Shown here piece by piece: positions 1,974 through 25,555 of a stretch of 29,529 nt of DNA. A program made the position numbers and the translations under genes. The DNA is taken from the IMG/VR virus record IMGVR_UViG_3300044576_000022, positions 1 through 29,529 of that record; one strand, given 5' to 3'. This DNA comes from a virus. A model generated the notes under the pieces. It searched no databases and was not told where the DNA came from. It saw only the letters and a program-made list of their open reading frames with translations. The stretch's first letter is position 1; each line of letters opens with the position of its first letter.

Positions 1974-2049
1974 GTCCTCATCGCTTAACTGGATAAAGCA
2001 GTGCCCTCCTAAGGCGTAGCTCATGGTTCGAGTCCATGTGGGGATACCA
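1974..2049 (+). tRNA. tRNA-Arg (anticodon CCU)
   Basis: A 76-nt cloverleaf folds by eye. The acceptor GTCCTCA pairs with TGGGGAT (two G-U wobbles). The D arm has a GCT/AGC stem. The anticodon stem GTGCC/GGCGT encloses the loop CTCCTAA with anticodon CCT, and the T arm is CATGG-TTCGAGT-CCATG. Discriminator A and a genome-encoded CCA follow. Anticodon CCU reads AGG, a rare arginine codon, and tRNA-Arg(CCU) is a common phage integration target. The phage lysis genes begin about 140 bases downstream. Confidence 0.95.
2024..2049 (+). other. Putative left attachment site (tRNA 3' end)
   Basis: Inference: tyrosine integrases usually recombine within the T-arm and acceptor end of a tRNA and rebuild the gene. 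Host genes lie left of this tRNA and phage genes lie right of it, with nothing else in between. I found no second copy of this sequence in the window, so the matching right end must lie beyond 29529 and the exact core cannot be fixed. Confidence 0.4.
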
Positions 2050-3229: not shown

Positions 3230-3259
3230 ACCTATTCCTAATGTTTTTCCAAAGTCTAT

Positions 3260-3289: not shown

Positions 3290-3295
3290 TGTCGC
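3290..3295 (-). promoter_or_regulatory. GCGACA motif, lysis-cassette copy
   Basis: The reverse strand reads TAGCGACAAAATAATAGTC, starting at the stop codon of the large ejection-type gene. The GCGACA part and the ATAGT that follows also occur in the gap at 13768-13773; the GCGACAA part occurs in the two longer elements at 13080-13108 and 22167-22195. Confidence 0.35.
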
Positions 3296-8815: not shown

Positions 8816-8819
8816 ATCT

Positions 8820-10202
8820 TTATCCTCTAAATATAAATCCACTAAATTGAAGTACAGTTTTGTACCCATTGTTTAGATTACTAATTGTTTTTAGCCCTAT
8901 TGCATATGGCATAAAACCTCTAATTCCATCAGTCCTTTTTGTAGTCCAGACTCTACCACTGCATCCATACAGATACTTAATAGCCTCTCCTGTGAGTTGA
9001 CTCCACTTTTTAAAGTCAAACGTATGGTAGAATGTTTCTGTACCGTCACTATGCACAACTTTACAAAAATCACCATACATATCGCTGTTTGGATAGACTA
9101 TCTCATCTGTATTTGTATGCTTTGGCATCCTGTTTAAAACAAATAAAGACTGCTTAATCATATTGTATTTTAGTGTTTTGAGAGGAGTATGTAACCAGTT
9201 ATCTGTCGCATAGTCATATTTTATTCTTTTTCCAAATTTCCATATCGGCTTGTCTTTTATAGATAATTTCCATCCATACTTAGTGTTCTTATAGGCATAA
9301 GAGCTTGTATCATCTCTTAAAAAATAGTACGTTTTATCTATCTTTGTACCAAACTTATATTGCGTAGGATTGCTTGCATATAATCCACCAAGAACCTTAC
9401 AATAGCTACCAGAGAATATATCTTTTGTAACATCCTTGATAGTCAAATCATTCTGAAATATCGTAGTCTCTGTATTGAACATATCCTCTATCGCTATACA
9501 TCCATCATCACCAAGTGCTGTAAAGTATCTTCCGTATCCATTTAGTGTATGCACTGTTCCGTCAAGCTTAAAGCTTACATATGTGCCAGAGTAGAAGTAC
9601 AGTATGTAGGCACCATTTACATATCCCACATAATTACTCGCTGTTGTGTCAAGCCCAGCAGGAAGTTGTCCTAAATCTTTAATGGTATAGTCATTCAAAC
9701 TAAAAAATACTGCAATTTTAGATATGACTGCACCAGTAGCATCTTTCACTGTCTTGAACCCAAACAACCCAGCATTTAACGTATCGTAATAGATGTCTGT
9801 TGCAGAATATGATACTGTTGAAGAGGATGATATGTTAGGCATATCTGTATTGTTAATCCCTACCCACTCTACATATACATAATGCTTCTTTGGAGAATAT
9901 ACTATCTTTGGCTTTGGCGTATCACTCTTTACTTTTGCAGGTAGCCATCCAAGTTCTTTCATTCTGTTTATGCCTACATCATTCATAGAGATGTCATATG
10001 CCTGTGGGCTAATATCGCCCTTAATCAAACTTAGATTGGTAAGTTTATCGCCTGTAACATTGTATCTGCTCATAGGTGACTTGAATGTCTTTACATCATT
10101 CATAACACCCATAGCAAAGGTACCGTTACACAACTCCTTTGTAAGTAAGTCACTGTCCTTATAGTTAGGACGTGGATATGGTATTGAATTATCCGTTTGC
10201 AT
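8820..10202 (-). CDS. Hypothetical tail/virion protein
   Basis: A 460-residue protein of unknown family, rich in Tyr, Thr and Lys and apparently mostly beta-structured (repeated patterns such as YVGYVNGAYILYFYSGTYVSFKLDGTVHTLNGYGRYF), like a beta-propeller or receptor-binding tail protein. The N-terminus (SIPYPRPNYKDSDLLTKELCNGTFAMGVMNDVKTFKS) looks like a short attachment segment. Its ATG lies 14 bases inside the end of the preceding gene, so translation is probably coupled. By position a tail or tail-tip component; no catalytic motif seen. Confidence 0.6.
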   Translation of the reverse strand: MQTDNSIPYPRPNYKDSDLLTKELCNGTFAMGVMNDVKTFKSPMSRYNVTGDKLTNLSLIKGDISPQAYDISMNDVGINRMKELGWLPAKVKSDTPKPKIVYSPKKHYVYVEWVGINNTDMPNISSSSTVSYSATDIYYDTLNAGLFGFKTVKDATGAVISKIAVFFSLNDYTIKDLGQLPAGLDTTASNYVGYVNGAYILYFYSGTYVSFKLDGTVHTLNGYGRYFTALGDDGCIAIEDMFNTETTIFQNDLTIKDVTKDIFSGSYCKVLGGLYASNPTQYKFGTKIDKTYYFLRDDTSSYAYKNTKYGWKLSIKDKPIWKFGKRIKYDYATDNWLHTPLKTLKYNMIKQSLFVLNRMPKHTNTDEIVYPNSDMYGDFCKVVHSDGTETFYHTFDFKKWSQLTGEAIKYLYGCSGRVWTTKRTDGIRGFMPYAIGLKTISNLNNGYKTVLQFSGFIFRG

Positions 10203-11465: not shown

Positions 11466-12452
11466 TTAAATTGATGAAGCCTGAATAGTGGCTACTTTAA
11501 GTGCTGTTTCATTTTTTCTTGCCTCTATACGTTCGTTTACTACAAGACTTTGTGCTACTGTTTGTGCCTGCATCTGTCTATAATAAACATCTGCATACCT
11601 CAAGTCTATCTCTGCACCTTGTAAGCGTACCTTTTCTTTTTCCACGGCTGTCTGCTCTATGATAAGTTTTGCTTTTTCTGTCTCTGTTGCTGTCTGTGCA
11701 ACCATAAGTGGTATCTTCTCTGCCTCAACGAGTACCTGTTTAGCCATAAGCCCAACTTTCTCACGTTCAGTCTCTATCTGCACTTCCATAAGCCCAACTT
11801 TTTTAGCTTCTACTGTAGCTTGTGCTTTCATCAGTGGCACTTTCTCTTTTTCCACATTCACCTGCTCACCCATTAGAGATATTTTCTTCTCTTCAAGTAG
11901 TGCCTGCTGTGTTTTTATTGCTATATCCTGCGTCATCAAATCAAGCTTTTTGGTCTCTACAGATAGCTGTTGCCCTTTAATAAGCAGGTCTGCATCTTTA
12001 ATTGCAACCTCTTTTTGATTAATAGCAACCTGTGACGGGATAAGCTGTTCAACCTCTATTTTTGCTTTTGCTATTTTTGTTGCAACCTCATTACTGCGTG
12101 CCTTATCTTCTGCCTGCATAGATGCAATTTTTTGTGTATCTACTGCTACCTCACTTGCACCCTTATTCTGTGCAATAGCAAGTTCACCCTGCATATTAAG
12201 TATTTTTTGGTCATTTACAACGCCATCAAGAGCCATTTGTGCAGATGCTGTAATGGCTTGTGTGACTGCTGTAGTAGTTACATCCGTAACAAACTTTGCA
12301 TAAATATTTGCACGCTCATTATCTGTGATACTTGTATTTGTTTCGAGGTATGTTTTTAGCTGAGTCTCTGCTTGTGCAAGTACAGATGTGGGGTCTGTAC
12401 TTACTGCTTTCATCGTCTCTTTTATCGCGTTTACATAAAAAACCAAATCCAT
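11466..12452 (-). CDS. Coiled-coil virion protein with 14-residue repeats
   Basis: A 328-residue, almost entirely helical protein. From about residue 160 to 280 it is built of a near-perfect 14-residue unit with consensus xQxxVExEKVxLMx. The Leu-Met pair recurs at Met 173, 194, 208, 222, 236 and 250, and degenerate forms follow at ~264 and ~278: one step of 21, then steps of 14. Fourteen is two heptads, so this should be a long regular coiled coil. The end (VYYRQMQAQTVAQSLVVNERIEARKN) is also helical. The ATG overlaps the previous stop (TAATG) and follows AAGGA. A phage tail rod, fibre shaft or internal protein is likely; no family recognised. Confidence 0.65.
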   Translation of the reverse strand: MDLVFYVNAIKETMKAVSTDPTSVLAQAETQLKTYLETNTSITDNERANIYAKFVTDVTTTAVTQAITASAQMALDGVVNDQKILNMQGELAIAQNKGASEVAVDTQKIASMQAEDKARSNEVATKIAKAKIEVEQLIPSQVAINQKEVAIKDADLLIKGQQLSVETKKLDLMTQDIAIKTQQALLEEKKISLMGEQVNVEKEKVPLMKAQATVEAKKVGLMEVQIETEREKVGLMAKQVLVEAEKIPLMVAQTATETEKAKLIIEQTAVEKEKVRLQGAEIDLRYADVYYRQMQAQTVAQSLVVNERIEARKNETALKVATIQASSI

Positions 12453-13057
12453 TAAAGTTCCTTTATTGTTACATTTGGCATAACTGCATCGAGCGTCACA
12501 GAGCCAAGTGATTGCATAGGTAGAGTCACACTAGGGATTGGTACGTTATCCATAGTTATGTTTCCATATGTAGAATTAAGAACACTGCTCCCCATAGTGA
12601 TTTCATAGTTCATTTTCAATAGATTTTTATTGACTATGAAGTCCTTGTTTAAGCAATGCACAATAGCCGTATCAATAGGTAGCGTTGTGTAATAAAAATC
12701 ACCAACAACATTATGCAGATTTCCTGTGTCTAAAACAGTTCCATTTGCATCATAAGCTGTATATGCAACTGTATAGTTTGGCTTGTATCCAATACAAAAT
12801 GCAGGAAGAGGGCTTCCAATCTTCTTAACTACTTTTTGTGTACCAACTGTAGCCATAAGGTACCCATCAAGTTGTGGTGCTACGCCAGTATATCCATCAA
12901 ACTTTCCAAATAATGAATGCGTGTATGGTATAGTAGTTACTGTACCGCTTAAAATATCAAGCCCATACATAGCTACTGTATCGCCATTTGGATTGTTGGC
13001 ATACAAGGTAAACTCTCTACCTCTTGTTAAGTTTGTTGTGTCAATTCTTACTATCAT
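12452..13057 (-). CDS. Hypothetical virion protein, first gene after late element A
   Basis: A 201-residue, beta-rich protein (MIVRIDTTNLTRGREFTLYANN...) with no recognised family. It is the first gene after the conserved element and hairpin at 13080-13127. Unlike nearly all its neighbours it has no visible Shine-Dalgarno sequence before the ATG: the 15 bases upstream are TTCTTAATATACTAC-like. If the TATAAT-like box in the element is used, the leader would be only about 17 bases. Its stop overlaps the start of the coiled-coil gene by one base. Structural role inferred from position. Confidence 0.6.
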   Translation of the reverse strand: MIVRIDTTNLTRGREFTLYANNPNGDTVAMYGLDILSGTVTTIPYTHSLFGKFDGYTGVAPQLDGYLMATVGTQKVVKKIGSPLPAFCIGYKPNYTVAYTAYDANGTVLDTGNLHNVVGDFYYTTLPIDTAIVHCLNKDFIVNKNLLKMNYEITMGSSVLNSTYGNITMDNVPIPSVTLPMQSLGSVTLDAVMPNVTIKEL

Positions 13058-13079
13058 AGTAGTATATTAAGAAGATAAA

Positions 13080-13108
13080 GATTATAGATATAGTCTTTAT
13101 TGTCGCAC
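13080..13108 (-). promoter_or_regulatory. Conserved late element, copy A
   Basis: A 29-nt reverse-strand sequence shared with 22167-22195 at about 26 of 29 positions. It contains the blocks GTGCGACAA and AAAGACTATATCTA, identical in both copies and one base apart. In copy A the 3' part also reads TATAAT (13081-13086). Its GTGCGA end is the distal arm of an adjoining hairpin. It lies in the 75-base gap before the gene starting at 13057, oriented to drive that gene. Candidate phage late promoter or processing site. Confidence 0.6.
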
Positions 13109-13127
13109 AAAGTAATACTCTGTGCGA
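13103..13127. other. Hairpin joined to late element A
   Basis: TCGCACA (13103-13109) pairs with TGTGCGA (13121-13127). After one mismatch AGT pairs with ACT around a three-base loop, giving an 11-step stem. It starts five bases after the stop of the upstream gene. No T-run follows on the reverse strand, so it is not a standard intrinsic terminator. Confidence 0.6.
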
Positions 13128-13132
13128 TTTAG

Positions 13133-13699
13133 TTAGTACGCCACTGCCACTGTTGTTACAGGTGCATTTGGGTCAATAGCTACAGTCGTTGTGTTATCCA
13201 CAACTTTTACTCTTTGTTCAACCAAAATACCGTGTATGCTACTCTCAATAGCTACAAGATACTCTCCTACTGTTGGGATAGATATTGTACCAGTTGCATA
13301 TTCACCAGTATTTCCAACCTGTGTGATTGTAGCACCAGACGCTACCCCTGCTCTAAGTGGTGTCTTTAGGTATGCTACACCACTAACAACACTTTGAACA
13401 TAGGCATATAGCCCTGTTGCATATTGCACAGTATCTCCTGCTACGATAGTAGATGTTGCAGGGTCAATCTGTAGCACTCTGTCTCCTACCGATGCGGGTG
13501 CGGTAGTCGTTGCTATATGCTCTGAACCAGTTGCAATAGCTACCACTGCTTCTGTAGCACCACCAGCTACTGCTACTTTTGTTCCAAGTGCATTTACGTC
13601 AGCATAATAGACAGAGAAGTCTGCCGATGATGCACCAAACAATGTTTTTTTTGTAGAGAGGACTACATTAAAATTCTCTCCAATGTTACGTGTATTCAT
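13133..13699 (-). CDS. Hypothetical virion protein, beta-rich
   Basis: A 188-residue protein rich in Ala, Val and Thr. The middle (VGDRVLQIDPATSTIVAGDTVQY... GVAYLKTPLRAGVASGATI) looks like a small beta-barrel module that recurs in phage structural proteins, and the end (GTISIPTVGEYLVAIESSIHGILVEQRVKVVD) resembles an immunoglobulin-like beta sandwich. ATG 13699 has AAGGAATA upstream. It sits alone between the GCGACA site at 13768 and late element A, so it may be its own transcription unit. Decoration, connector or tail protein by position; family not recognised. Confidence 0.6.
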   Translation of the reverse strand: MNTRNIGENFNVVLSTKKTLFGASSADFSVYYADVNALGTKVAVAGGATEAVVAIATGSEHIATTTAPASVGDRVLQIDPATSTIVAGDTVQYATGLYAYVQSVVSGVAYLKTPLRAGVASGATITQVGNTGEYATGTISIPTVGEYLVAIESSIHGILVEQRVKVVDNTTTVAIDPNAPVTTVAVAY

Positions 13700-13767
13700 A
13701 TTTTATTCCTTATATTTTTTTTACACATCAATGTTACCAATATTTAAACTCCAAGTAACTATAAAAG

Positions 13768-13773
13768 TGTCGC
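13768..13773 (-). promoter_or_regulatory. GCGACA motif, copy between tail genes
   Basis: The reverse strand reads TAGCGACACTTTTATAGTTA from the stop codon of the gene 13773-14909. It shares TAGCGACA, then ATAGT at a similar spacing, with the site at 3290-3295. It lies in the ~70-base gap before the gene starting at 13699. Confidence 0.35.
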
Positions 13774-14909
13774 TATAAAACAACTGCTGTTTTATGCCCT
13801 GCTCCATACCCAAAGTAATAGCCATTTACGTTAAAAGTTTCCATTTCAGAGCTTCTATTTGCATCCATAACCACTTCTTTTGTCATATCAGTATTATAGA
13901 TATGCTTAATAAGTGGTAGCCCATCAAGTGTTGTGATATTTAATGGCGTTAGTAAACCATTTGCATCTACCTGCTCTAGCCCATTTTGCGTTTCAATATA
14001 ATGTATCTCATTGTTAATAGCATTAGATGGAACAATAATAGGAACATTCATTATTACAGTATCTCCATTATCAACAACGTATCCAGTATTCCCAACACCA
14101 GCCCACCCCGTCTTGTGGTCTGTTCTCTTTAATGTGATATAGGCATAGTGTTCAGGGGAGAACATAGCACTATAATCTACTTTTGTCGGAGGTGCTGTAG
14201 GAGATGTGCTAGGTACCTGCTCATACATAGTGATATTTCTTGTTCTCACCATTTTTCTTACAATCGTGCCATATCCAGTGATTGGCACTTTTGTACCACC
14301 AAGGATTGCATAAAGTGTTACCCCAAGCGTTACTATCTGTGTTGTACCAATCATATCAACGATAGCATAAGGTAGCCCAGTCACAGAGCTTAAAGTAACT
14401 ACATTATCATTTTTTGCACCCTCAAACACAGCCACAATATCCTTTGCTTTTCCAGCAGAGTCCTCAAATAGCGGGATAAGAGAGCCTCCAACGCCAGCAA
14501 TTCTGTAGTGATTTATTATGGCAGGCACTACGTAAATGTCATTTTTTGTAACTCTTACACAGCTTTTTGATTTTTCCAAAACAATAACTGTGCCATATGT
14601 AGAAGACACACTAGCTTCAAGGCACGTTCCATTATCGTATCGTATTTTAAGCGTATTTCCACCAGCTATTTCCATAATCTTAGGATTACCGATGCCCGCT
14701 TTCTGCTTACTTGCAATATCTGCTGTTATTTTAGTAGCTGTTCCACTAGGCACAAATCCACCAGAGGCAGTTATGTCATATTTGTAAGAGGTTAATGCTC
14801 CATTATTTAATATAAATATTTCATCTGTGCTTTCGGTAGATAGGTGTACTATCTGCTCCCCCGTGAGTGTTAACCCACGGGTACCTAATCTCATTCCTGT
14901 ATTGTTCAT
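13773..14909 (-). CDS. Hypothetical tail/virion protein
   Basis: A 378-residue, predominantly beta-structured protein (MNNTGMRLGTRGLTLTGEQIVHLSTE...) with Gly- and Thr-rich strands and no motif I can assign. There is no signal peptide or membrane segment. The short Pro-rich stretch PSTSPTAPPTKVDYSAMF near residue 235 suggests a linker between two domains. An AAAGG site precedes ATG 14909, ten bases after the stop of the upstream gene. Part of the tail gene block; role unknown. Confidence 0.6.
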   Translation of the reverse strand: MNNTGMRLGTRGLTLTGEQIVHLSTESTDEIFILNNGALTSYKYDITASGGFVPSGTATKITADIASKQKAGIGNPKIMEIAGGNTLKIRYDNGTCLEASVSSTYGTVIVLEKSKSCVRVTKNDIYVVPAIINHYRIAGVGGSLIPLFEDSAGKAKDIVAVFEGAKNDNVVTLSSVTGLPYAIVDMIGTTQIVTLGVTLYAILGGTKVPITGYGTIVRKMVRTRNITMYEQVPSTSPTAPPTKVDYSAMFSPEHYAYITLKRTDHKTGWAGVGNTGYVVDNGDTVIMNVPIIVPSNAINNEIHYIETQNGLEQVDANGLLTPLNITTLDGLPLIKHIYNTDMTKEVVMDANRSSEMETFNVNGYYFGYGAGHKTAVVL

Positions 14910-14918
14910 TATAAGCCT

Positions 14919-15347
14919 TTAATATAATCGTGGTGCAGGACTTATTACATCTTCGCACCCATATCCATTTTGTGTGATAGTTGTAGCCTTAACCTCTTCA
15001 ACATTGCAAGTAGTAGCCTCTTCATAAGTAATGGCAACACTCCAATTATTAAATCCTATAAGCGATGTATTTCTAGTTATAGTGCTTACGGGATATGCGT
15101 TCCATCGTTTCCATTTAAAAGGTGATAGAGGCACAAGTTTATTAGCATTTGTCTCACCAGTAATAGGCAGAATTACACCATTGATTGGTGGATTAGACAT
15201 ATTAAAACTAATAACTGCATTGCCAAGCCCTATGTTGTTAACAGTAGTTGAGTTTTGGTATCGTGGTCTTACAGTAAACTTGTTTAGTGTAGGACTCCAA
15301 TTTAATACGTGGTCTCCAAAATTTATTAGCCTAATTGGTGGTGGCAT
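14919..15347 (-). CDS. Hypothetical virion protein
   Basis: A 142-residue protein opening MPPPIRLINFGDHVLNWSPTLNKFTVRP, with beta-strand-like alternation through the middle and two cysteines in the C-terminal part (TTCNVEE, YGCEDV). No family recognised. It starts directly after the stop of the 868-residue gene, with an AAGGAG ribosome site that overlaps that gene's last codons, so the two are coupled. Likely a tail component. Confidence 0.6.
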   Translation of the reverse strand: MPPPIRLINFGDHVLNWSPTLNKFTVRPRYQNSTTVNNIGLGNAVISFNMSNPPINGVILPITGETNANKLVPLSPFKWKRWNAYPVSTITRNTSLIGFNNWSVAITYEEATTCNVEEVKATTITQNGYGCEDVISPAPRLY

Positions 15348-15348
15348 C

Positions 15349-17955
15349 TTATACTCCTTTGTGGCTAAACATTCCGTCTAGCGTTAATGTACTGAATTGT
15401 GATGTGATGTCATTATTGTTTGCATCAAGTACCTTATATGTAACATCTACAGAACCATCTGCATTTTTTGCAAAGTTGTATTTCACTAACATACCACTAT
15501 TTGGCGTGACTGGATATGCTACAGAATTTCCAGCAGGAACATTTGATGTAGAATATCCACCTACTCCTGATATAGAGTCCACACCATTTATTATAGTCTG
15601 TGTAGTGAGTTCCCCAGTCCTTAAATTAAATGACCTCTTAGTATAGTTCACTGGGTCATTAGGTGCTATTTCTAGTCCAGTTATCTCGTCCGTATGAGAC
15701 ATAAATAATATCGGTGATGTGTTTGTAACATTAAGTGTACTCGGGTCTATTCTAACGGCTGTAAGTCCGCCTAATGTATCTCTAATGTTTAATGAATTTG
15801 TTAAAAATTGCTCCATAGCAAGAGTATCTACTTTCGTAGTTATTCCATTTACGCCAAGATATACATTTAAGATAGGGCTTCCAGAGCTAGTTTGTGACGC
15901 AATAAGTGTATCAACTCCACTAGCAATACTAATAAGTTTTTTATACATAGAAATATCAGTGTTTGCAAATAATCCGTCATATGCAATACAGAAGATAGAG
16001 CCTGCAAACCTATTTTCTGTTTTATCTATAGGTATAGTAGGTGTTCCAAATCTAAAGCTACGCTTGTATCCATCTACAAGACTATCTATAATATTTTGAA
16101 ACAATGCTATATCCTCTACTCTAACAGAGTAGCTAGATGATACTACTATTGGTACTCCTGCATCAGCCCAAGACATTACTTTATCTCTGGCGTAAGGCAA
16201 CGGTGTACCATTTACAAGTATATACCTAAGACCTAACATACACTGACCAGTAGGGTCTGCATCAGAAGCAAATATACCACCTGCTCCTATCGATGCAAAG
16301 TCACACAGTAACAGCTTATCATTAGGCACAGTAGCGACTGATATGCTAAGTCTATGTAGTGACGCATACATATCGTTACCTGCTAGTGTATTATAATTCA
16401 CTATCCCAGCGGATACCAACTTTTTTATATTTCCACCAAAATGGTCTACTCCACCAAGAGCCAGAGAATTTATTGTGCAAGAGTTGCCAAGTATCACATT
16501 TGTGCCAACATAAATATTATTAAATCCATAAGAATAGTACATATCTACAAAATCAAATGTTGTAAAGATAACTTTTTTAATTTTAGAGAATAGTGCTGTA
16601 CCAACGATAGATAAAGCCTTTGTCTCATCTGAATAAACACTCACTATCGGGGTAAGCTCACCATTAGCAAAAGTAAAGTCATACGCGTATAGTTCTTGTA
16701 GGGTAGGTATAATAAAATACTGCTCTACATATTTTTGTCCGCTTGCACGTACAACACCAGATAGTATCTCTTTTGGGAGTGGTATATCTGCATTGATTGT
16801 ATTAAATTCAAATAGTGGTGTTGAGGAGGCACCACTAGCCATTACTGTAGTATTTAGGGTTACATATTTTTTTGCAATGCCAAGAATATCACCACTAATT
16901 GTATCTGTCGGACTATCTATATTAAAATATGAGTCGAACGAACCATACAATACCCTGCGACCAAGTATAGAAACATCAAAATATGTAGATGTTCTTGTGC
17001 TGGTTAGTGTAGTGTATCTAAGATATACATCTGCTAGTAACTCACCAATGAGAGTTGGTACAGCAGATGGTGAAGATAGCAAGAAGTTATAAGGCTCACC
17101 CGTTGACCCGCTACGCATTATAGATACAGACGCACCAAAATCTGTAGTAATAGTTGTTATTTTACTATTAAAAAACTCATCTGGCGTAAGTTGTTTGAAT
17201 AAACAGTACGATATTGATGTCATATTTGGCAACATTTTTAATAGTGGAACTCTAACATCTTCACCATCAGAAGCACACAATTTGTTTATCGTCTGAATAC
17301 CATTAGCATCTTCTATCATTTCAAACTCTTTTGATGCTGTGCTTAGTGAATATTTTTGCGTACCAGTAGATACAAATGTTTTGCTTTTCGCATCCTGTGT
17401 TGCATTATAGACACTCATTATAGATGTGCCTTGATTTAAAAACTTTAAAATATCTGCTTTTTGTATGGTAGATATTACAGTGATTATATCAGCAATATTT
17501 ATAGATGCTGTTGGTTTCGCTATAAGGTATATCTCCTTGATGTCATTAGCTAACGCATCTATGGTCTTTGTACCGTTTGCATAGTCAAGTAGTGCCTTGT
17601 AATAATTTGGCTTAACTCCAAGATTTAGTGGGTCTTTTAAGATAGATAGGTCTGAACTATATTTCGGGATAGCGACGGTATAATCTCCATTATGATAGTT
17701 TATATACCTAACCATCAGATTAGAGAGTACATCTACATCAGCGTGATTATTCGTAAACTCTATAGAAAATGAACTGAAAGGTTGTGTATCGCTCCAAAAT
17801 ATATTATTACCTACCAGACTCACAAGTTCTTCAAGGTAAACATTTCCTATGGTTATTTTGCTACCAGAGACAGTAGCTGTTATCTCTGGGAACTTGTCAA
17901 TCACCGCCTGAGAAAAGACTACTGTTCCATTTGGTTGTATCGTAATAGATGCCAT
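15349..17955 (-). CDS. Large hypothetical tail protein (868 aa)
   Basis: An 868-residue protein, the second largest in the phage. It opens MASITIQPNGTVVFSQAVIDKFPEITATVSGSKITIGNVYLEELVSLVG, and long stretches alternate beta-strands with Ser/Thr/Asn-rich loops (for example NIYVGTNVILGNSCTINSLALGG), compatible with a beta-helix or multi-domain tail spike or hub. I see no enzyme motif, transmembrane segment or coiled coil. ATG 17955 has an AAGG site and follows the previous stop by three bases. Size and place suggest a main tail or host-contact protein, but this is inference. Confidence 0.6.
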   Translation of the reverse strand: MASITIQPNGTVVFSQAVIDKFPEITATVSGSKITIGNVYLEELVSLVGNNIFWSDTQPFSSFSIEFTNNHADVDVLSNLMVRYINYHNGDYTVAIPKYSSDLSILKDPLNLGVKPNYYKALLDYANGTKTIDALANDIKEIYLIAKPTASINIADIITVISTIQKADILKFLNQGTSIMSVYNATQDAKSKTFVSTGTQKYSLSTASKEFEMIEDANGIQTINKLCASDGEDVRVPLLKMLPNMTSISYCLFKQLTPDEFFNSKITTITTDFGASVSIMRSGSTGEPYNFLLSSPSAVPTLIGELLADVYLRYTTLTSTRTSTYFDVSILGRRVLYGSFDSYFNIDSPTDTISGDILGIAKKYVTLNTTVMASGASSTPLFEFNTINADIPLPKEILSGVVRASGQKYVEQYFIIPTLQELYAYDFTFANGELTPIVSVYSDETKALSIVGTALFSKIKKVIFTTFDFVDMYYSYGFNNIYVGTNVILGNSCTINSLALGGVDHFGGNIKKLVSAGIVNYNTLAGNDMYASLHRLSISVATVPNDKLLLCDFASIGAGGIFASDADPTGQCMLGLRYILVNGTPLPYARDKVMSWADAGVPIVVSSSYSVRVEDIALFQNIIDSLVDGYKRSFRFGTPTIPIDKTENRFAGSIFCIAYDGLFANTDISMYKKLISIASGVDTLIASQTSSGSPILNVYLGVNGITTKVDTLAMEQFLTNSLNIRDTLGGLTAVRIDPSTLNVTNTSPILFMSHTDEITGLEIAPNDPVNYTKRSFNLRTGELTTQTIINGVDSISGVGGYSTSNVPAGNSVAYPVTPNSGMLVKYNFAKNADGSVDVTYKVLDANNNDITSQFSTLTLDGMFSHKGV

Positions 17956-17958
17956 TAA

Positions 17959-18492
17959 TTATACCTTGTTTAATACAATATTGTATGACGTTCCTACAAG
18001 CTGTTGTGGTATAGAAACACTAAATGTTGTTGCATCAATTTGTGTAACTGTTGCATTACTAACCGCTCCACCTGTACTATCTACAATTTTTGCTGTCATA
18101 TTTATATTTGTTAGTAACTGAACCTGACTTACAAAAGCAGGGTCACTTATAATTCCTTGTATGTCTGTTAGCTGTTTTACTTTAGCCACAAAAGCAGGGT
18201 CGTTTACAATACTCTGTATATCAAGCACCTGCTGTTGAGGTTGCTGTGATGCACCACTAAATTCTATAAATCCGCTTTTGCTTCCTATGAGTATTTTGTT
18301 ACTCTCCTGCACATATACTACTGCTAAATCATTTGCACCGATGCTATTGATAACATCTGCTCTTAGCTGTGCTTCTGGTATTGTGCCACTTGACACAAAA
18401 TTTTTTATATGGTGATTTCCAAGAGGTAGTGGGAGTAAACTCCCATCTACATATCCAACAGAAACGTAACCATCACTTACATATTTTGTCAT
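17959..18492 (-). CDS. Hypothetical tail protein with a 19-residue tandem repeat
   Basis: A 177-residue protein. The N-terminus (YVSDGYVSVGYVDGSLLPLPLGNHHIKNF) is beta-like. After a Gln/Pro linker (ASQQPQQQ) comes a tandem duplication of about 19 residues: DIQSIVNDPAFVAKVKQLT then DIQGIISDPAFVSQVQLLT. The C-terminal domain is beta-rich (SNATVTQIDATTFSVSIPQQLVGTSYNIVLNKV). AGGA precedes ATG 18492. The layout (head domain, short helical repeats, beta tail) is compatible with a fibre-type component; no family recognised. Confidence 0.6.
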   Translation of the reverse strand: MTKYVSDGYVSVGYVDGSLLPLPLGNHHIKNFVSSGTIPEAQLRADVINSIGANDLAVVYVQESNKILIGSKSGFIEFSGASQQPQQQVLDIQSIVNDPAFVAKVKQLTDIQGIISDPAFVSQVQLLTNINMTAKIVDSTGGAVSNATVTQIDATTFSVSIPQQLVGTSYNIVLNKV

Positions 18493-18500
18493 GGCTAATC

Positions 18501-19052
18501 CTAAATTACAGTTGTACCTGTAGTACCTGTTGGTGGTGGTGTAGTACCTGTTGGTGGTGGTGGCGGTGGTGGCGGTGGTGGCGGCACAAAGTCCAGTACT
18601 TCAACTGTAACAGTGTTTCCAATCGTGTGTGATGCTGTCATTATAAATAAATCTGTAGCAAGTACTGTAGGTGCTGTAGGTGTTGAAGATGCACTTGTAT
18701 ATGTATAGTTATATCCATATCTTGATGCCATATCATTCCATACTGTATATGATGATATTCTTACTCTTCCATTGGCTGTATCCTCATATAAGGTTATGAC
18801 TTTACCTGCTAGTTCTGGTGGGATGCTCCACGCTAGGTACTTCTTGTCTGCAACGACTGATAGCGTTAGCGGGAAAGATAGTGGTGTAGCATTAAATATT
18901 GCTGATATTTCAGCACCATAAAATCTATCAGATAGTAGCACTGCGTGTAGCACATTCTCTAAGTTCTTATCCAATTCATCGTGTGTAAGCTCTGCACCCT
19001 TGTCTGCTCTTGTAACAAGACCAAAACTTGTGTTTAGTGTTTTATCAAGCAT
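18501..19052 (-). CDS. Hypothetical tail protein with polyproline C-terminus
   Basis: About 183 residues. A globular first part (NTSFGLVTRADKGAELTHDELDKNLENVLHAVLLSDRFYG) is followed by beta-like sequence. The tail has eleven consecutive prolines, then TGTTPPPTGTTGTTVI. The proline run is coded by an imperfect 9-bp tandem unit (CCG CCA CCA), so it could change length by slippage, and eleven prolines should need elongation factor P for smooth translation. I prefer ATG 19052, with AAGGA 7 bases upstream, over ATG 19058, which sits too close to it. It overlaps the end of the 61-aa gene. The 'DELDKNL' segment resembles N-termini of small phage fibre proteins. Confidence 0.6.
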   Translation of the reverse strand: MLDKTLNTSFGLVTRADKGAELTHDELDKNLENVLHAVLLSDRFYGAEISAIFNATPLSFPLTLSVVADKKYLAWSIPPELAGKVITLYEDTANGRVRISSYTVWNDMASRYGYNYTYTSASSTPTAPTVLATDLFIMTASHTIGNTVTVEVLDFVPPPPPPPPPPPTGTTPPPTGTTGTTVI

Positions 19053-19230
19053 TTCCATTTCCTTTCGTTAAGTCTAAAATTATGGTGCCATTTGCATCAT
19101 ATAACTTACCATCATAGTGCGTAAGTGTTTTTTTTGTTACATCATCAAAACATTGTTGACCATTTTGAAGAGGCATATCCCTGTCGGTAACTTTACCATT
19201 GTATAGTAACACCGTTCTTTCCTGTTTCAT
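19045..19230 (-). CDS. Small hypothetical phage protein (61 aa)
   Basis: A 61-residue protein (MKQERTVLLYNGKVTDRDMPLQNGQQCFDDVTKKTLTHYDGKLYDANGTIILDL). It has two short strand-turn units (LLYNGKVTDRD, HYDGKLYDANG), like the small beta modules used in tail fibres. AAGGA lies 8 bases before the ATG. It ends inside the start of the next gene. No family recognised; translation supported by the ribosome site and operon packing. Confidence 0.6.
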   Translation of the reverse strand: MKQERTVLLYNGKVTDRDMPLQNGQQCFDDVTKKTLTHYDGKLYDANGTIILDLTKGNGNA

Positions 19231-19241
19231 TTTTTAAATCC

Positions 19242-19661
19242 TTATATTACTACTGCATCTACTATAGTAGGTGCTGTTTCCAAAGCACTAACTCGTAAAG
19301 TTAGGTCACTATTTACTGTATTTACAGACGCTATTGAATTAGTGTTAGCTTGTATCTTTGCGTCAATACCTACAGGGTCTATCATCATATACTCTATTCT
19401 ACCTGTTGTTGCAGGTAACATACTATATTTTGTTGCACATGGTGTAGAGTAAATCCTCCATAATTGACCACTGTTTGTTGCGTGTCCTGTTACAAAATAT
19501 ACATCTGCAAAGAAATAATCAATAAAGTTACCGTTAGCATCTTTATTTGTAGCTACATTCTGAAATGTATTGTCTAACCAATTTATAGCAAACTGCATTG
19601 CTGTTTCAAAATTTGCTGTAGAATTTGGTCTAACAAGAACCTCTTTTTTGTATAAAGCCAT
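19242..19661 (-). CDS. Hypothetical tail-associated protein
   Basis: A 139-residue protein. The first ~90 residues are mixed alpha/beta (MALYKKEVLVRPNSTANFETAMQFAINWLDNTF). The end is a short coiled-coil segment (IDAKIQANTNSIASVNTVNSDLTLRVSALE) of the 'NTxSIxxxNxxxxxLxxRVxALE' style seen in trimeric fibre shafts. The last residues are DAVVI. AAGGAAAA precedes ATG 19661. Probably a small fibre or chaperone-like tail component. Confidence 0.6.
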   Translation of the reverse strand: MALYKKEVLVRPNSTANFETAMQFAINWLDNTFQNVATNKDANGNFIDYFFADVYFVTGHATNSGQLWRIYSTPCATKYSMLPATTGRIEYMMIDPVGIDAKIQANTNSIASVNTVNSDLTLRVSALETAPTIVDAVVI

Positions 19662-19683
19662 TGTTTTCCTTTTTATGTGTTGT

Positions 19684-19707
19684 TGGTGATGTATAACTAC
19701 ATCACCA
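19684..19707. other. Perfect hairpin between tail genes
   Basis: TGGTGATGT and ACATCACCA form a nine-base-pair stem around ATAACT. It lies in the 73-base gap between the fibre-like gene and the 139-aa gene. It has no following T-run in either direction; an RNA-processing, stabilising or attenuating structure is possible. Confidence 0.55.
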
Positions 19708-19734
19708 TTGGAAGTTATCTTAGAGAGGCGTTAC

Positions 19735-20679
19735 TTAGATAACTGCCCCTGTACCTGCTGGAGATGTTGGTATAGTACCTCCTGCTGGTGGTGGTGGTGG
19801 AGTTGTACCTCCTGCACAAGCACCAGTACCATTAAGTACATCTGTAATAGTAGCTCCTCCGAAACCACAATCCATAGCACTTCTGAACATTGACGCGAGT
19901 GCAACGGCATCAATGGCTACAATATCTGACTTAGTTACAAATGTAGCATCTGCATAAGCTTTTGCTGTAGCTACTGCTCCTGCTGATGCCACCTCTGCTG
20001 TGTGAGCCACAGACCCAACTACCGTATTTGCTCCGTTGAGCGTTGCAATAGATGCCGTATTTGCGTCAATCCCTGCCTGTAGTCCAGATACTGCTGTATT
20101 ACTTGCTGACTTGTCTGCAATACGTGCATCATCTACTGCCTTGATAGCCGTATCAAGTTTGTTATCTGCATCCTGTAGAGAAGTTGCTGTAGCGATATAG
20201 TTTGCCCCACTGTTTGCCAAGTAGGTACCATCTGCTTGTAGCCCTGCTCCTGCTTGTGTTGCATCAAGTTCTGCTTGCAATGCTGTATCTGCGTTGGTAC
20301 GTGCAACGGTCTCTGCATCAAGTGCTGTCTGTAGTGCTGTCTCTGCATTTACTGCTCTTGTCTGCTCTTGTCCTACTGCGTATGCCACAGAGCCTACTGT
20401 ACTTGCATTTCCATTTAATGTACCAACAGCACTTTCAAGATTTACAATTCTTGCTAAATGGTCTGAAAGTTGTGTGATGATATTCTGACCTACATCAAAC
20501 TGTGCCGTATTTGGATTTGCATCAAGGATGCCCTGAATTGTACCAATCGCACTCTGTAGTGCTGTTAGGTCAATATTTGTTGCTCCTACTACTGTAGAAA
20601 TCTCCTGCTTAATCTTATTTCCTACTTCAAAACCCCAGTGTTTACTGATGAGTTCCAATAACGCTTTAGTATCGTTCAT
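19735..20679 (-). CDS. Tail-fibre-like coiled-coil protein
   Basis: A 314-residue protein rich in Ala, Thr and Asp. The N-terminal ~45 residues are helical (NDTKALLELISKHWGFEVGNKIKQEI). A long region of trimeric-shaft-type repeats follows: AVNAETALQTALDAETVARTNADTALQAELDATQ and SASNTAVSGLQAGIDANTASIATLNGANTVVG. Such repeats (RxxAExALxxxxxxE) are characteristic of phage tail fibres and bacterial adhesin stalks. The C-terminus is proline/glycine-rich (TPPPPPAGGTIPTSPAGTGAVI), with two preceding cysteines (MDCGFGG, GTGACAGG). AAGGAATA precedes ATG 20679. Likely a fibre or fibre-connecting protein. Confidence 0.65.
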   Translation of the reverse strand: MNDTKALLELISKHWGFEVGNKIKQEISTVVGATNIDLTALQSAIGTIQGILDANPNTAQFDVGQNIITQLSDHLARIVNLESAVGTLNGNASTVGSVAYAVGQEQTRAVNAETALQTALDAETVARTNADTALQAELDATQAGAGLQADGTYLANSGANYIATATSLQDADNKLDTAIKAVDDARIADKSASNTAVSGLQAGIDANTASIATLNGANTVVGSVAHTAEVASAGAVATAKAYADATFVTKSDIVAIDAVALASMFRSAMDCGFGGATITDVLNGTGACAGGTTPPPPPAGGTIPTSPAGTGAVI

Positions 20680-20719
20680 TAATTATTCCTTGTTGGTATT
20701 TGTAGCGATAAACGCTCAT

Positions 20720-20760
20720 ATACCCCACCTTTTTATGGAGGAGACTTTGGTGGGGGGTAT
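20720..20760. other. GC-rich hairpin between head and tail blocks
   Basis: ATACCCCACC (20720-20729) pairs with GGTGGGGGGTAT (20749-20760, two extra G) across a ~19-base loop. It lies in the gap between the adaptor-like gene and the fibre-like gene. The reverse strand has no T-run after it, so a simple terminator is doubtful. It may end or punctuate the capsid transcript or protect its 3' end. Confidence 0.5.
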
Positions 20761-20768
20761 CAACATAA

Positions 20769-21176
20769 TCACAGTATATTTGATGTGTATATACTTACTT
20801 GCTTATTTGCTTTTGCTTCATAATTATCTTTATATTTATTGCTTAGGTACGAACATATAAAGAATGTTACTGCCAAGCCAAGTTCATTATCTATTGGCAT
20901 TTCAACAGCATCTACTATAGTGGTAGGTATTACAGGACTCTTGACATAATATTGCACTATCTTTGTATTAAGTGCGTCTATGCGTACCTCTTCTGATGGC
21001 AGAAGTCTCAGCACATCTGTCTCAGTACCTGTATATTCAACTTTCATAGATGTAGGCACGCAAAGCATACCTATCTCTAACATTGCCATTTTAAAATGGG
21101 TATGAGAGACTAAAGCGTTACCATTGTCTCCTCTAAGAAACTCTGCTACGAACTCCTTAGCCTCTCCGTATGTCAT
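20769..21176 (-). CDS. Putative head-tail adaptor
   Basis: A 135-residue protein (MTYGEAKEFVAEFLRGDNGNALVSHTHFKMAMLEIG...) directly after the capsid gene, with its ATG overlapping the capsid stop (TAATG). The end, MPIDNELGLAVTFFICSYLSNKYKDNYEAKANKQVSIYTSN, is the helical pattern of small head-completion/adaptor proteins that bind under the portal in short-tailed phages: acidic D-N-E followed by a hydrophobic helix, then a charged helix. Size and position also fit. A start 7 codons upstream is possible but unneeded. The match is by pattern and context. Confidence 0.6.
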   Translation of the reverse strand: MTYGEAKEFVAEFLRGDNGNALVSHTHFKMAMLEIGMLCVPTSMKVEYTGTETDVLRLLPSEEVRIDALNTKIVQYYVKSPVIPTTIVDAVEMPIDNELGLAVTFFICSYLSNKYKDNYEAKANKQVSIYTSNIL

Positions 21177-22120
21177 TACTGTAAACCTGTACCACAAGCA
21201 AAGTAGTCTGGTGTTCTAACTTCAAGTGTTGCAGAAGTGTAGTATCTACCAAACTTAGCTGTCTTAGATGTTGGTGGCTCTTCAAATGTAGTAGGTATTT
21301 TGAACATGATTTTAGCTTCATCAAGTTTACCTGCAAGGACTGTATTTTGTAGCTTAGGGTCTGCAAATAGTCTATGCATTTTCACTTTCACTGTTCCAAA
21401 ATCTGTTTCAAGTTCATAAAGTGTTGGGTCAAACTTTTTCTCATTTTTGAGTTGTCTAAAGTATTGAGTACCTGCAAATCTATTAATCGCTTTTTTAAGT
21501 AAAGGACTGACTACCAAAGAGAAGCTTTCATCTTCTAATCCACCCTTTTCCCAGATTGGCTGTAGAATTTCACTCAGAATATCATATGTGAAGTTTGTAT
21601 TTGTTGCAACTCCACCTGCTGTAGCTGGTGCTATTGTGTAGTCTTTTTTGTTTGTAGGTTCAATATAGTTGAAAATACCTGCCATTTTTGCAGGTGTTGT
21701 AGGGCTTCCAACAGTATATGGGTCAAAAACAGAAGCATTATGTAGCCCAAGTAGTGCATATTCAATATCTTTTGTATGCTCTTTTCCTACTTTTGCTGTT
21801 CTGTACGCCCACTCTTTTGTACCATATTTTGCATTTTGCATCTCTTCATTAGAAATACCATAATCGTTTTTGATGATTTGCACAACATTATCTCTCATAT
21901 ATTTTGTGTCTGTGGTATTTTCTTGAATATCTGTTATTTCAAGATTTGAGTTTGCACCTGCATTTTGGTATCTATCCAAAATCCAAGAGTGTTTAGGTGC
22001 AGATACGCTACCTCTACCAAACCACTCCAAGAAAGGTGTCTTATGCACACCCTGTAGGATGATAGCATCAAGTATTGACGGTTTCTGATTGACTGTATTT
22101 CCATACGATAGTAAAGCCAT
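21176..22120 (-). CDS. Major capsid protein, SU10/DUF5309-like
   Basis: A 314-residue protein, the main shell subunit. The N-terminus (TVNQKPSILDAIILQGVHKTPFLEWFGRGSVSAPKHSWILDRYQN) and the elements IKNDYGISNEEMQNAKYGTKEWAYRTAKVGKEHTKDIEYALL and RLFADPKLQNTVLAGKLDEAKIMF match, as I recall them, the SU10-type capsid family (DUF5309, HK97 fold). That family is best known from the short-tailed coliphages SU10 and phiEco32. Length is within its usual range, and no prohead-protease gene is adjacent. AAGGAAAA precedes ATG 22120. It is the first gene after late element B and is followed with a one-base overlap by the adaptor, so high late expression is expected. Confidence 0.85.
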   Translation of the reverse strand: MALLSYGNTVNQKPSILDAIILQGVHKTPFLEWFGRGSVSAPKHSWILDRYQNAGANSNLEITDIQENTTDTKYMRDNVVQIIKNDYGISNEEMQNAKYGTKEWAYRTAKVGKEHTKDIEYALLGLHNASVFDPYTVGSPTTPAKMAGIFNYIEPTNKKDYTIAPATAGGVATNTNFTYDILSEILQPIWEKGGLEDESFSLVVSPLLKKAINRFAGTQYFRQLKNEKKFDPTLYELETDFGTVKVKMHRLFADPKLQNTVLAGKLDEAKIMFKIPTTFEEPPTSKTAKFGRYYTSATLEVRTPDYFACGTGLQ

Positions 22121-22166
22121 TTTATTTTCCTTATTTTAGTTTATAAGGGTATTTTTGCTTATTACC

Positions 22167-22195
22167 GAATGTAGATATAGTCTTTTTTGTCGCAC
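22167..22195 (-). promoter_or_regulatory. Conserved late element, copy B
   Basis: Reverse-strand partner of copy A (13080-13108): GTGCGACAA, one variable base, AAAGACTATATCTA, then CATTC where copy A has TAATC. It lies between the scaffold-like gene and the capsid gene, pointing at the capsid gene, with about 45 bases of leader. It overlaps the arm of the hairpin at 22192-22213. Candidate promoter or processing site for the capsid transcript. Confidence 0.6.
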
Positions 22196-22213
22196 CTTAC
22201 TGTCGCAAGGTGC
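22192..22213. other. Hairpin joined to late element B
   Basis: GCACCTT (22192-22198) pairs with AAGGTGC (22207-22213) over an eight-base loop. TGTCGCA occurs twice (22188-22194 and 22201-22207), once in the element and once across the loop. On the plus strand the hairpin is followed by ATATTTTTT; on the reverse (coding) strand by GACAAAAAAG, so it is not a terminator for the scaffold-like gene. Confidence 0.6.
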
Positions 22214-22740: not shown

Positions 22741-23187
22741 CTATACCTCCTCTTCTACGTTGTACCAATCTTTTGCCATTACATCAACAATAGATGGTTG
22801 GTAAGGTGATGCGTGGGTGCCATTTGATAGTGATGGTAACGTGTGTCCTCTCTCTATAAACACATAGTGTTCAGATAGCTCATCACACCACTCTCTACGT
22901 GCAAATTTTCCACCCCTTTCTGCCACTGCAAAGGCTTCTAAAATATTCATATCATCGTGACCCTCTGTATTAGCTTCCTCTTCTGCAATTCTCAATGCTT
23001 CTGCTTTAGCTTCATCTTCTTTAATCGCATCCACCATTGCTTTAAGTGCTTTATACTCTGCCGTATCTCCTTTTGCATTATCTCCAAGTGCATCTAGTTT
23101 TGCGACTGCTTCTTTTAGCTCGTTGTTGTCTGCATACCCGTTTATAGCCATTGCCGATGCGATTAATTCTTTTACTACTGGTGTCAT
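22741..23187 (-). CDS. Protein with C-terminal DUF2829/Tad2-like domain
   Basis: 148 residues from ATG 23187 (AAGGAA upstream; an ATG at 23250 has no good site). Residues 1-79 are a Lys/Glu/Ala-rich helical region (ELKEAVAKLDALGDNAKG ... EDEAKAEALRIAEEEAN). Residues 80-148 begin with an internal Met: MNILEAFAVAERGGKFARREW ... PYQPSIVDVMAKDWYNVEE. This matches the DUF2829 pattern: MNFxEAxxxxxxGxxxxRxxW at the start and a late 'xDxxAxDW'. That family includes Tad2, which sequesters the cyclic ADP-ribose signal of Thoeris defence. Position between portal and scaffold genes is unusual for an anti-defence gene, so a structural role or a free C-terminal product from the internal Met 80 are both possible. 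Family call from recall; function unproven. Confidence 0.6.
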   Translation of the reverse strand: MTPVVKELIASAMAINGYADNNELKEAVAKLDALGDNAKGDTAEYKALKAMVDAIKEDEAKAEALRIAEEEANTEGHDDMNILEAFAVAERGGKFARREWCDELSEHYVFIERGHTLPSLSNGTHASPYQPSIVDVMAKDWYNVEEEV

Positions 23188-23226
23188 ATTTATTTCCTTA
23201 TTAAAATTATATTTTTGGTTAAGCTC

Positions 23227-23232
23227 ATTATA
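23227..23232 (-). promoter_or_regulatory. Candidate -10 box before the DUF2829-like gene
   Basis: The reverse strand reads TACTATAATG in the gap after the portal-linked gene, about 40 bases before ATG 23187. No clear -35. It could drive the DUF2829-like and scaffold-like genes. Confidence 0.4.
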
Positions 23233-23252
23233 GTAAGAACACAGAGCCATTT

Positions 23253-23573: not shown

Positions 23574-25092
23574 CTGTTTCTCCTTTTAGTGTTGGGATGA
23601 TATTTTTAAGTCTTAAAGCCTTTAGCTTCTCCTCGAATAGCTTGTCTAATACGCTTAGGTATCTCTTAGCTCCCTCTATATCCTGCATCTCCACATGGGT
23701 CTTAGCATTTTGCATAGCTGAACCCTCTGCTTGAGTGATGTTATTTAGTAATATTTCACCATTTACTGCACCAACTCCTGCATTGATAGATACAAAGAAT
23801 TTGATATTTTTTGTTCTGTCAACTCCATACAGAAGTGGCGTGGTATCATATTTATAGATGAGTCTTACCATGCGTCTTATGGCAGGTTCAAAAAAGCTTT
23901 CATTCATAGCACGGATAATATCTCCCACTACTACATTTCCCTCTTCCGATAAGATACTCATACCTGTAGCTGTCTGATACTTGCTTCCGTTATCCACTAT
24001 TCCCTGTGATGCTTTTGTTACACCACTCACCTCTTGCATCTCTGTATCAAGTCTATCTGTATGAAATATTGATACATCCACTCTAGGGATAGGCACCTGC
24101 TCTACTTCACTAAGATTTGATACAGTCACCTTTTTTCTACCACTTGCTAAATCACTCTCATTAAGCCCAGAGGTCTTAGTTGCCATATATTGTGGATTAA
24201 AAGTCTTGTCTATAGCGTCTATCTGCTGGTTCCGTATAATGGTGTACTCTTCTTGTAGTGGTATCATTGACTCTATGAAACTTGCACCATACGCCTCTAC
24301 TACATTTGTTTCATTTATCCCTACAAACTGTGGGTCAATATTTCCTATAATAAAGGGTAGTCCGTCTTTAAGGACTTCATCTGTTCTAATAAATGTCTGG
24401 TCTGGTAATACTGTGGATACAAGCCATTTTCCATTCTGGTATCTATACACATCATGCACTTCTACTCTTGATGCGTCTCCAATATCAACTGTAGATACTT
24501 TGGTGCCAAGCTCTGTTTGTCCTACATAATTTTTCCACTTGAACTTACGCCCAAACTGTGAGCGTAATCTACCTACTGTTGTGAATACTCTGTTTACACA
24601 ATATTGAATATCAAATACACTGGTTGCATTTGGGTCTATAAATAGGTCTCTTATCTTTACCCTATTTATAGACAAATGTTTGCCACTCCAATATATCTTT
24701 ACAATAGGCGTACCATATACAAGTGCATCTATGACAGATGGTTTGAAGCGTGTGTAAAGATTGATACGCTTAGTCGTCCAATTATCCAGTGCTTTTTGTA
24801 ATTTTTCTACATCTTCAAAGCCCTCATCTGTTGGATACTCTGGTACCAACTTAGCAAATTCATCATTTTCAAAGTACGTTTTCATAATAGAAATCATCAC
24901 TTTTCTAACTTTTGCCTTGATAACTTTAGGCGTTATATGGCTTTTTCGTCTTGATTTTAGGCTTTTAACCACAGATGGGTGCAATACATTATTGTATCCT
25001 GCCTCTAACTCTTCAAATGAGTATCTGTATAAGTCATACCCTTTTTTAGCTTCTGATATTAAAAGCAACACTCTCTCTTGATTTTTATTCAT
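23419..25092 (-). CDS. Portal protein
   Basis: A portal protein of 557 residues forms the dodecameric DNA channel at one capsid vertex. Recognisable elements: RFKPSVIDALVYGTPIVKIYW (the 'G-T-x-x-x-K' strand), the DLFIDPNATSVFDIQYCVNRVFTT segment typical of podoviral portals, VVEAYGASFIESMIPLQEEYTIIRNQQIDAIDKTFNPQ (long helix), SGVTKASQG...YQTATGMSILSEEGN and a late helix (AMQNAKTHVEMQDIEGAKRYL). The C-terminus is acidic and Gln/Gly-rich. It follows the terminase block and precedes scaffold and capsid genes, the standard order. I use ATG 25092 (AAGGA with proper spacing); ATG 25101 is the alternative. Overlaps the HTH gene by 8 bases. Confidence 0.85.
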   Translation of the reverse strand: MNKNQERVLLLISEAKKGYDLYRYSFEELEAGYNNVLHPSVVKSLKSRRKSHITPKVIKAKVRKVMISIMKTYFENDEFAKLVPEYPTDEGFEDVEKLQKALDNWTTKRINLYTRFKPSVIDALVYGTPIVKIYWSGKHLSINRVKIRDLFIDPNATSVFDIQYCVNRVFTTVGRLRSQFGRKFKWKNYVGQTELGTKVSTVDIGDASRVEVHDVYRYQNGKWLVSTVLPDQTFIRTDEVLKDGLPFIIGNIDPQFVGINETNVVEAYGASFIESMIPLQEEYTIIRNQQIDAIDKTFNPQYMATKTSGLNESDLASGRKKVTVSNLSEVEQVPIPRVDVSIFHTDRLDTEMQEVSGVTKASQGIVDNGSKYQTATGMSILSEEGNVVVGDIIRAMNESFFEPAIRRMVRLIYKYDTTPLLYGVDRTKNIKFFVSINAGVGAVNGEILLNNITQAEGSAMQNAKTHVEMQDIEGAKRYLSVLDKLFEEKLKALRLKNIIPTLKGETDEQRPDGDADDEQYEAGNYSEADEAGFGGNVQQQGVQYLPNGDAGAVQQAF

Positions 25093-25555
25093 CTGTATCA
25101 TCCTTTATTCTTTTTTTAATTCTCTGTATTCTTCGTCTATTAAAGCCTGTTGCCATCTCTATCTGACGTGTACTCCAATCTGCCTTTAGTAAATCCTCTA
25201 TGATAAGGTACTCCGTCATTTGTACTGTTACTTTGTACTCACACGCATAGTCATCTCCCTTTCTAAGTAACAGTATTGGGTCTCCAAATAACATCTCTGC
25301 TCTTCTAAATAATTTGGGTATCTTTGTTTTAGAAAATCCATTAACTCTATAAAGAGGCATATTAAGTGCTTTTGATATTTGTTCATTTGTAAACCCTGCA
25401 TCTTTGAAAGTTTGAACAAATAATTTTGCAACATCACGCTCTTTAATAGAGAACTCTACTGAGCCTATTTTTTTTACAATCTGATGAAGTATAAAGATAT
25501 GATTATCTACAATATCCCTTACACGCCATCTATTTATCTCGCTACTACTTACCAC
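25085..25555 (-). CDS. Helix-turn-helix DNA-binding protein between terminase and portal
   Basis: A 156-residue protein with a GTG start preceded by GGAGGT inside the terminase gene end. Two helix-turn-helix-like segments are visible: GFTNEQISKALNMPLYRVNGFSK (about residues 53-75) and WSTRQIEMATGFNRRRIQRIKKRIK near the C-terminus, the latter strongly basic. This is the pattern of resolvase- or sigma-type HTH units. Its place in the packaging operon suggests a DNA-packaging helper, or a late-gene regulator that might act on the conserved late elements. No family recognised; function is inference. Confidence 0.65.
   Translation of the reverse strand: MVSSSEINRWRVRDIVDNHIFILHQIVKKIGSVEFSIKERDVAKLFVQTFKDAGFTNEQISKALNMPLYRVNGFSKTKIPKLFRRAEMLFGDPILLLRKGDDYACEYKVTVQMTEYLIIEDLLKADWSTRQIEMATGFNRRRIQRIKKRIKDDTDE

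Follow-up and report, generated by a model that had tools for sequence, protein, structure and literature searches.

The analysed stretch of viral DNA (29,529 nt, hereafter the window) carries two near-identical sequences on its reverse strand, at positions 13080–13108 (site A) and 22167–22195 (site B), which agree at 26 of 29 bases (90%). The sequence GACAANAAAGACTATATCTA, with up to three mismatches allowed, occurs only twice in the whole window against 0.01 occurrences expected, and the 14-nt core AAAGACTATATCTA likewise occurs twice, once per copy. Both copies lie within short gaps between genes of the same strand (75 and 100 nt), bearing out the original prediction, which had placed a match of about 26/29 in two intergenic gaps 9 kb apart. 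It had also named structural genes as the targets of both copies, and this held for one of them. The gene behind site B (21176–22120, reverse strand) encodes the major capsid protein (PHROG 1328, E = 1e-53), whose best matches in the phage collection were distant, at 23–38% identity: a Campylobacter Minhovirus, Helicobacter pullorum prophages and Pseudomonas phages including Bruynoghevirus. The gene behind site A (12452–13057, reverse strand) is no proven tail gene; it encodes a 201-aa protein whose orthologous group spans 12 phage records, the window among them, and which gave no match in PHROG and Pfam searches. Rfam returned no family at sites A and B, the sole convincing match in the window being a tRNA.

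Each site resolves into the same parts, all on the reverse strand. At site B, GCGACA (22188–22193) is the conserved upstream element of a predicted capsid-gene promoter and recurs as [CT]GACA, at a fixed distance from the −10, in 12 relatives. It is followed by AAAGACTATATCTA at 22172–22185, which covers the −35 position, and by the −10-like hexamer AAAAAT at 22151–22156, located 31 nt past GCGACA and 30 nt before the ATG, as in most relatives. Transcription is predicted to start near 22144. Site A comprises GCGACA (13101–13106), also present in the relatives G001, G002 and G013, the same AAAGACTATATCTA at 13085–13098, and a −10 hexamer, TAATAT (13064–13069), exactly 6 nt before the ATG at 13057.

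Relatives were gathered through capsid, portal and terminase searches; several of the phage records are fragments, and gene starts come from mechanical ORF calling. The part that persists across them is neither the hairpin described below nor AAAGACTATATCTA; it is GCGACA, at minimum GACA, just past the end of the upstream gene, then 31–32 nt, then a −10-like hexamer. An unbiased 6-mer test on 149 same-strand gaps from 19 phage records found CGACAA in 18 gaps (2.2 expected) and GCGACA in 14 (1.8 expected), both among the most enriched 6-mers, the rest of the top being Shine-Dalgarno (SD) sequences. In a small host sample (three MAGs, 90 gaps) the motif was not clearly enriched (CGACAA in 4, ~2.3 expected), and its interpretation as a host-wide element was rejected on that basis.

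The spacing between the element and the −10 was evaluated with an independent E. coli −10 matrix, so the −10 sites reported here are predictions under that matrix. Across 31 [CT]GACA sites picked by rule, the score peaked at an offset of 31–32 nt (z = 7.6), with all other non-adjacent offsets at or below 3.6 z. After reduction to 22 sites, mostly with one phage per clade and with the GACA picked blind to the −10, the peak had a z of 8.8 and was reached by none of 1000 shuffles. The pattern nAnnnT stood at the expected offset in 21 of these 22 sites versus a mean of 4.2 at other offsets, and 15 of the 22 had TT at the −35 position (the hexamer 17 nt before the −10). At most capsid genes the −10 lies ~30 nt from the ATG. 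When a model was trained on the capsid sites alone, held-out sites upstream of genes made up 8 of its top 20 hits versus a base rate of 7%.

Ordinary host sigma70 promoters, with GCGACA contacted by RNA polymerase or a host factor and a phage activator unneeded, would account for the TT at the −35 position, which has the normal 17-nt spacing to the −10, and for the good −10 hexamers of several relatives (CATAAT, TATAGT, TATGAT). We consider this rather improbable, however, since GCGACA is no AT-rich UP element, the host gaps show no clear enrichment of it, most of the −35 hexamers are poor, as are many of the −10 hexamers (AAAAAT and CAAAAT among these), and two relatives, G008 and G007, swap whole promoter sets together. 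A promoter class that depends on a phage activator fits the shared upstream element, its fixed distance to the −10, its position before several late modules and its restriction to phage rather than host gaps, as judged from the small sample of 90 gaps in three MAGs.

In total, the window has four sites: before the capsid gene (22193), a 188-aa gene (13773), the 201-aa gene (13106) and a 123-aa gene (3295), all on the reverse strand. At the third site, GCGACA (13768–13773) lies directly at the upstream stop codon (TAGCGACA), and the −10 hexamer TAACAT (13731–13736) follows 31 nt past it. The 188-aa gene behind it (13133–13699, reverse strand) has orthologues in 11 relatives that are 42–69% identical, and its product had no match in the phage collection. 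The fourth site consists of GCGACA at 3290–3295 and the −10 hexamer TAGACT at 3253–3258, again 31 nt past the element. Eight relatives (G001, G002, C49a, C49b, G009, G010, G011 and G005) have most of the same sites at orthologous positions, and site A was seen in the window, G001, G002 and G013 only. In the last of these, a phage fetched afterwards, sites A and B are present together with the p3295-end site, spaced at 32 nt, and its 188-aa gene has GGACA-N32-TAACAT. An additional GACA promoter is predicted in C49a (21637) and C49b (25159) (L043, L044/L045), two prophages from one MAG contig, close to the beginning of the gene orthologous to window gene 7742–8869. The Campylobacteraceae MAG contig JALWKO010000049.1 (L011, L012) carries two related prophages whose capsid protein is 70–75% identical to that of the window.

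The 14-nt core, which had been put forward as the conserved unit, proved to be specific to this phage: AAAGACTATATCTA is missing at the corresponding gaps of close relatives, and AAAGACTATATCTA with its GCGACAAN flank had no exact match in IMG/VR (viral_contigs). The 16 nt after GACA are more alike between sites within one phage than between phages (permutation p = 0.0002, a value that base composition may inflate), and such within-phage sharing stands out in the window, G005 (14/16) and G013 (13/16), each with a core of its own. By these comparisons, the 14-nt core is the phage-specific half of the site, in a pattern that also exists in G005 and G013. A mere recent copy, or gene conversion between the two gaps, could likewise produce a 29-nt identity with a core common only to this phage's two sites. 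This is quite unlikely given that the hairpin stems outside the element differ, that G005 and G013 share their own cores in the same way, and that the −10 spacing is kept at both sites.

Hairpins abut or overlap the GACA at both copies. The hairpin of site B (22192–22213, reverse strand) pairs GCACCTT (22213–22207) with AAGGTGC (22198–22192; shuffle p = 0.007), its loop being overlapped by a second GCGACA at 22206–22201, and that of site A (13103–13127, reverse strand) pairs TCGCACAGAG (13127–13118) with CTTTGTGCGA (13112–13103; shuffle p = 0.003). The 3′ arms end in GTGC just before or across GACA and, as originally described, the stems differ between the two sites. Hairpins of this kind were found at the capsid site in five phages (the window, G001, L004, G002 and G013) and at site A in four, seven of the nine having a shuffle p ≤ 0.013; elsewhere, nearly every site or phage tested was without a significant hairpin. 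The selection on structure plus sequence that had been proposed holds within a clade. Judged by this distribution, the hairpins are a clade-specific addition at the capsid and A sites. An obligatory role in the promoter was rejected, since two of the four window sites (those of the 188-aa and 123-aa genes) lack the hairpin, as do most relatives in which GACA-N31-(−10) is conserved.

The same absence weighs against an RNA element, such as a terminator or a processing or mRNA-stabilising hairpin, with a conserved flank and no promoter. Such an element would explain why five phages have changed-stem hairpins directly next to GACA at A and B and why hairpins occur in other operon gaps too, but no U-tract follows the hairpin and the fixed spacing to the −10 is left unexplained, which makes it a very unlikely reading. 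The hairpin may have a 3′-end role alongside the promoter. Strong hairpins without GCGACA are found in the gaps at 20680–20768 and 19662–19734 (for example ATACCCCCCACC..GGTGGGGTAT); these hairpins of other late-operon gaps are probably mRNA 3′ structures.

The promoters of phage N4 are single-stranded hairpins used by a virion RNA polymerase, and the hairpin is obligatory at every one of them. The original prediction had raised this type because a hairpin lies beside a conserved core before late genes, and an inverted repeat beside the promoter is indeed common to both systems. In the window, however, the hairpin is dispensable and wrongly placed, ~40 nt upstream of the −10, and hairpin loops are mostly 4–10 nt. 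No virion RNA polymerase was found in this incomplete window, where the largest protein (1496 aa, 3295–7785) has no Pfam match. The four-site set does not appear to consist of N4 hairpin promoters, and this reading, already largely refuted, is scarcely credible.

In two lineages, a different element stands in place of GCGACA at two or three of the corresponding positions. In G008, CTTTTAAAC-N11-(−10), or a one-base variant of it, occupies the capsid, 188-aa and p3295-end positions; the capsid position of G003 has TTTTTAAAC-N11-(−10), and the sequence upstream of the capsid gene in L014 is that of G008. G007 has a third element of its own at the capsid and 188-aa positions. The clade of G003 and L014 is nested among GACA phages in the capsid tree, indicating that the replacement there is derived. 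Although the swap lineages are few, amounting to about two independent swaps, replacement everywhere at once points to a single virus-made activator protein.

The most likely candidate for the activator is a fast-evolving 156-aa double-HTH protein encoded at 25085–25555 (reverse strand), between the terminase large subunit and the portal. It is 17–50% identical to its counterparts in relatives, compared with 37–91% for the terminase and portal matches. Pfam HTH_23 matches 11 of the 15 family members, and the AlphaFold2 (AF2) model shows two tandem helix-strand-HTH modules (mean pLDDT 86.5). Fold searches of PDB and BFVD with this model gave only local HTH similarity, with nothing at E ≤ 0.001, and NCBIfam matches to the family were weak and mixed. 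The Arg of a G-x-x-x-R motif in the recognition helix of the C-terminal HTH, a position chosen after the alignment was seen, occurs in all 14 (C)GACA phages, G013 among them, and in none of the 3 replacement phages, in which Gly (G003), Tyr (L014) or Glu (G007) takes its place. Only one family member matches a late activator PHROG (E = 0.0037).

Alternatively, the trans-acting factor could be another phage protein, an early regulator or sigma factor, leaving the 25085–25555 product as a packaging or structural DNA-binding protein. Five family members weakly match a terminase small subunit PHROG, and the early region of G002 contains Rha-like and other HTH regulators, both of which lend this alternative some weight. 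It nevertheless appears unlikely, because the phage already has a separate Terminase_2 small subunit, the recognition-helix Arg tracks the promoter type, and neither a sigma factor nor a polymerase was found among 10 mostly early G002 proteins.

Together, these results suggest that the two copies are probably the upstream halves of two late promoters, among four in this prophage, that are driven by a phage-encoded activator. Of the functions originally put forward, a phage-specific late promoter or activator site is thus the one that is well supported, by GCGACA and a −10 separated by 31/32 nt before late genes of many relatives. In each promoter, GCGACA would lie at approximately −49 to −44 and a phage-specific stretch would cover the −35; the −10, often a poor one, would follow 31–32 nt after GCGACA. 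A phage DNA-binding protein, most likely the 25085–25555 product, would bind GCGACA and the phage-specific stretch next to the −35 and thereby allow host RNA polymerase to start at the late promoters. The candidate gene is located with the packaging genes, before the first element, so that packaging genes would be expressed first, followed by capsid, tail and end-module genes. The hairpins at the capsid and A sites probably form the 3′ end or an insulator of read-through RNA. The element, its spacing and positions, the swap and the covariation are seen directly in the sequences, and from them the transcription start, the identity of the activator, the expression order and the role of the hairpins are inferred.

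This mechanism is proposed by analogy with Mu C and P2 Ogr, which the system most resembles in its likely mode of operation. The Mu late promoters (lys, I, P and mom) use host RNA polymerase, have non-consensus −10 and −35 elements and carry the C site just upstream of the −35 (PMC4461284). The window shares with them four predicted late promoters, a putative activator site upstream of the −35 and weak promoter elements, and differs in its GCGACA motif and its tandem double-HTH candidate, for which PHROGs, Pfam and NCBIfam gave no clear homology. P2 uses four late promoters for its late operons and one phage activator, Ogr (PMC3931495). Here, too, there are four predicted late promoters and one candidate phage activator; unlike the TGT-N12-ACA sites of P2 and its zinc-finger Ogr, however, the element is a single asymmetric GCGACA and the candidate an HTH_23-like protein whose sequence lacks CX2CX22CX4C. 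The system is outside the Ogr family and has no clear homology to Mu C or P2 Ogr.

At the capsid gene, CCTTAT in the leader pairs with ATAAGG of the SD sequence (22129–22148, reverse strand), the 5′ arm lying at or before the predicted start. The predicted unpaired probability of the SD is 0.20 in read-through RNA versus 0.49 in de novo RNA. In the window, G001, G002, G003, L014 and G007, and by eye in G013, the predicted partner of the SD is an arm at the transcription start or further upstream. No such hiding was seen in C49b, L007–L009 and G005, and it was rejected as a general feature because only about half of the capsid leaders show it. In that half, the capsid ribosome site would be paired in read-through RNA and less so in RNA from the late promoter. 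In T4, genes e, soc, 49 and I-TevI show translational timing in which the SD is paired in a long early RNA, and gene e RNA made from late promoters, which lacks the 5′ portion of the structure, is translated (PMC3014915). The predicted pairing of the SD with an upstream arm resembles that in gene e; here it concerns the capsid gene, in about half of the phages. At site A, the −10 is exactly 6 nt from the ATG with no SD in the window, G001, G002 and G013, from which a leaderless mRNA is predicted.

The literature searched yielded no late-promoter system for Campylobacterota prophages. We tentatively propose, as a possibility slightly less likely than not, that these sites represent a new activator-controlled late-promoter family of Campylobacterota phages, in which a fast-evolving tandem-HTH activator and all its promoters switch together, transcription start is coupled to translation (late-only SD exposure and leaderless site A), and hairpin insulators occur in one clade. 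The analysis provides a predicted regulon map and a candidate activator for the late genes of Campylobacterota prophages. It also yields a natural series of matched activator–promoter variants (GCGACA, GTGACA, TTTTAAAC and TTGAAAC types), in which a regulator and all of its sites can be studied as they change specificity together.

Within the head-gene cluster, the product of 22741–23250 (reverse strand) contains a Tad2-like (Thoeris anti-defence) Pfam domain (E = 4.6e-7). One end of the prophage carries a tRNA-Arg (CCT) at 1974–2049 (forward strand), beside a DEAD-box helicase gene (371–1840). The phage-end sequence TTCCCATAAAGTGCCGATTTTCGACTGACACT is common to the window and G001, where it lies near the integrase, and is therefore likely to be an att junction at the prophage end.
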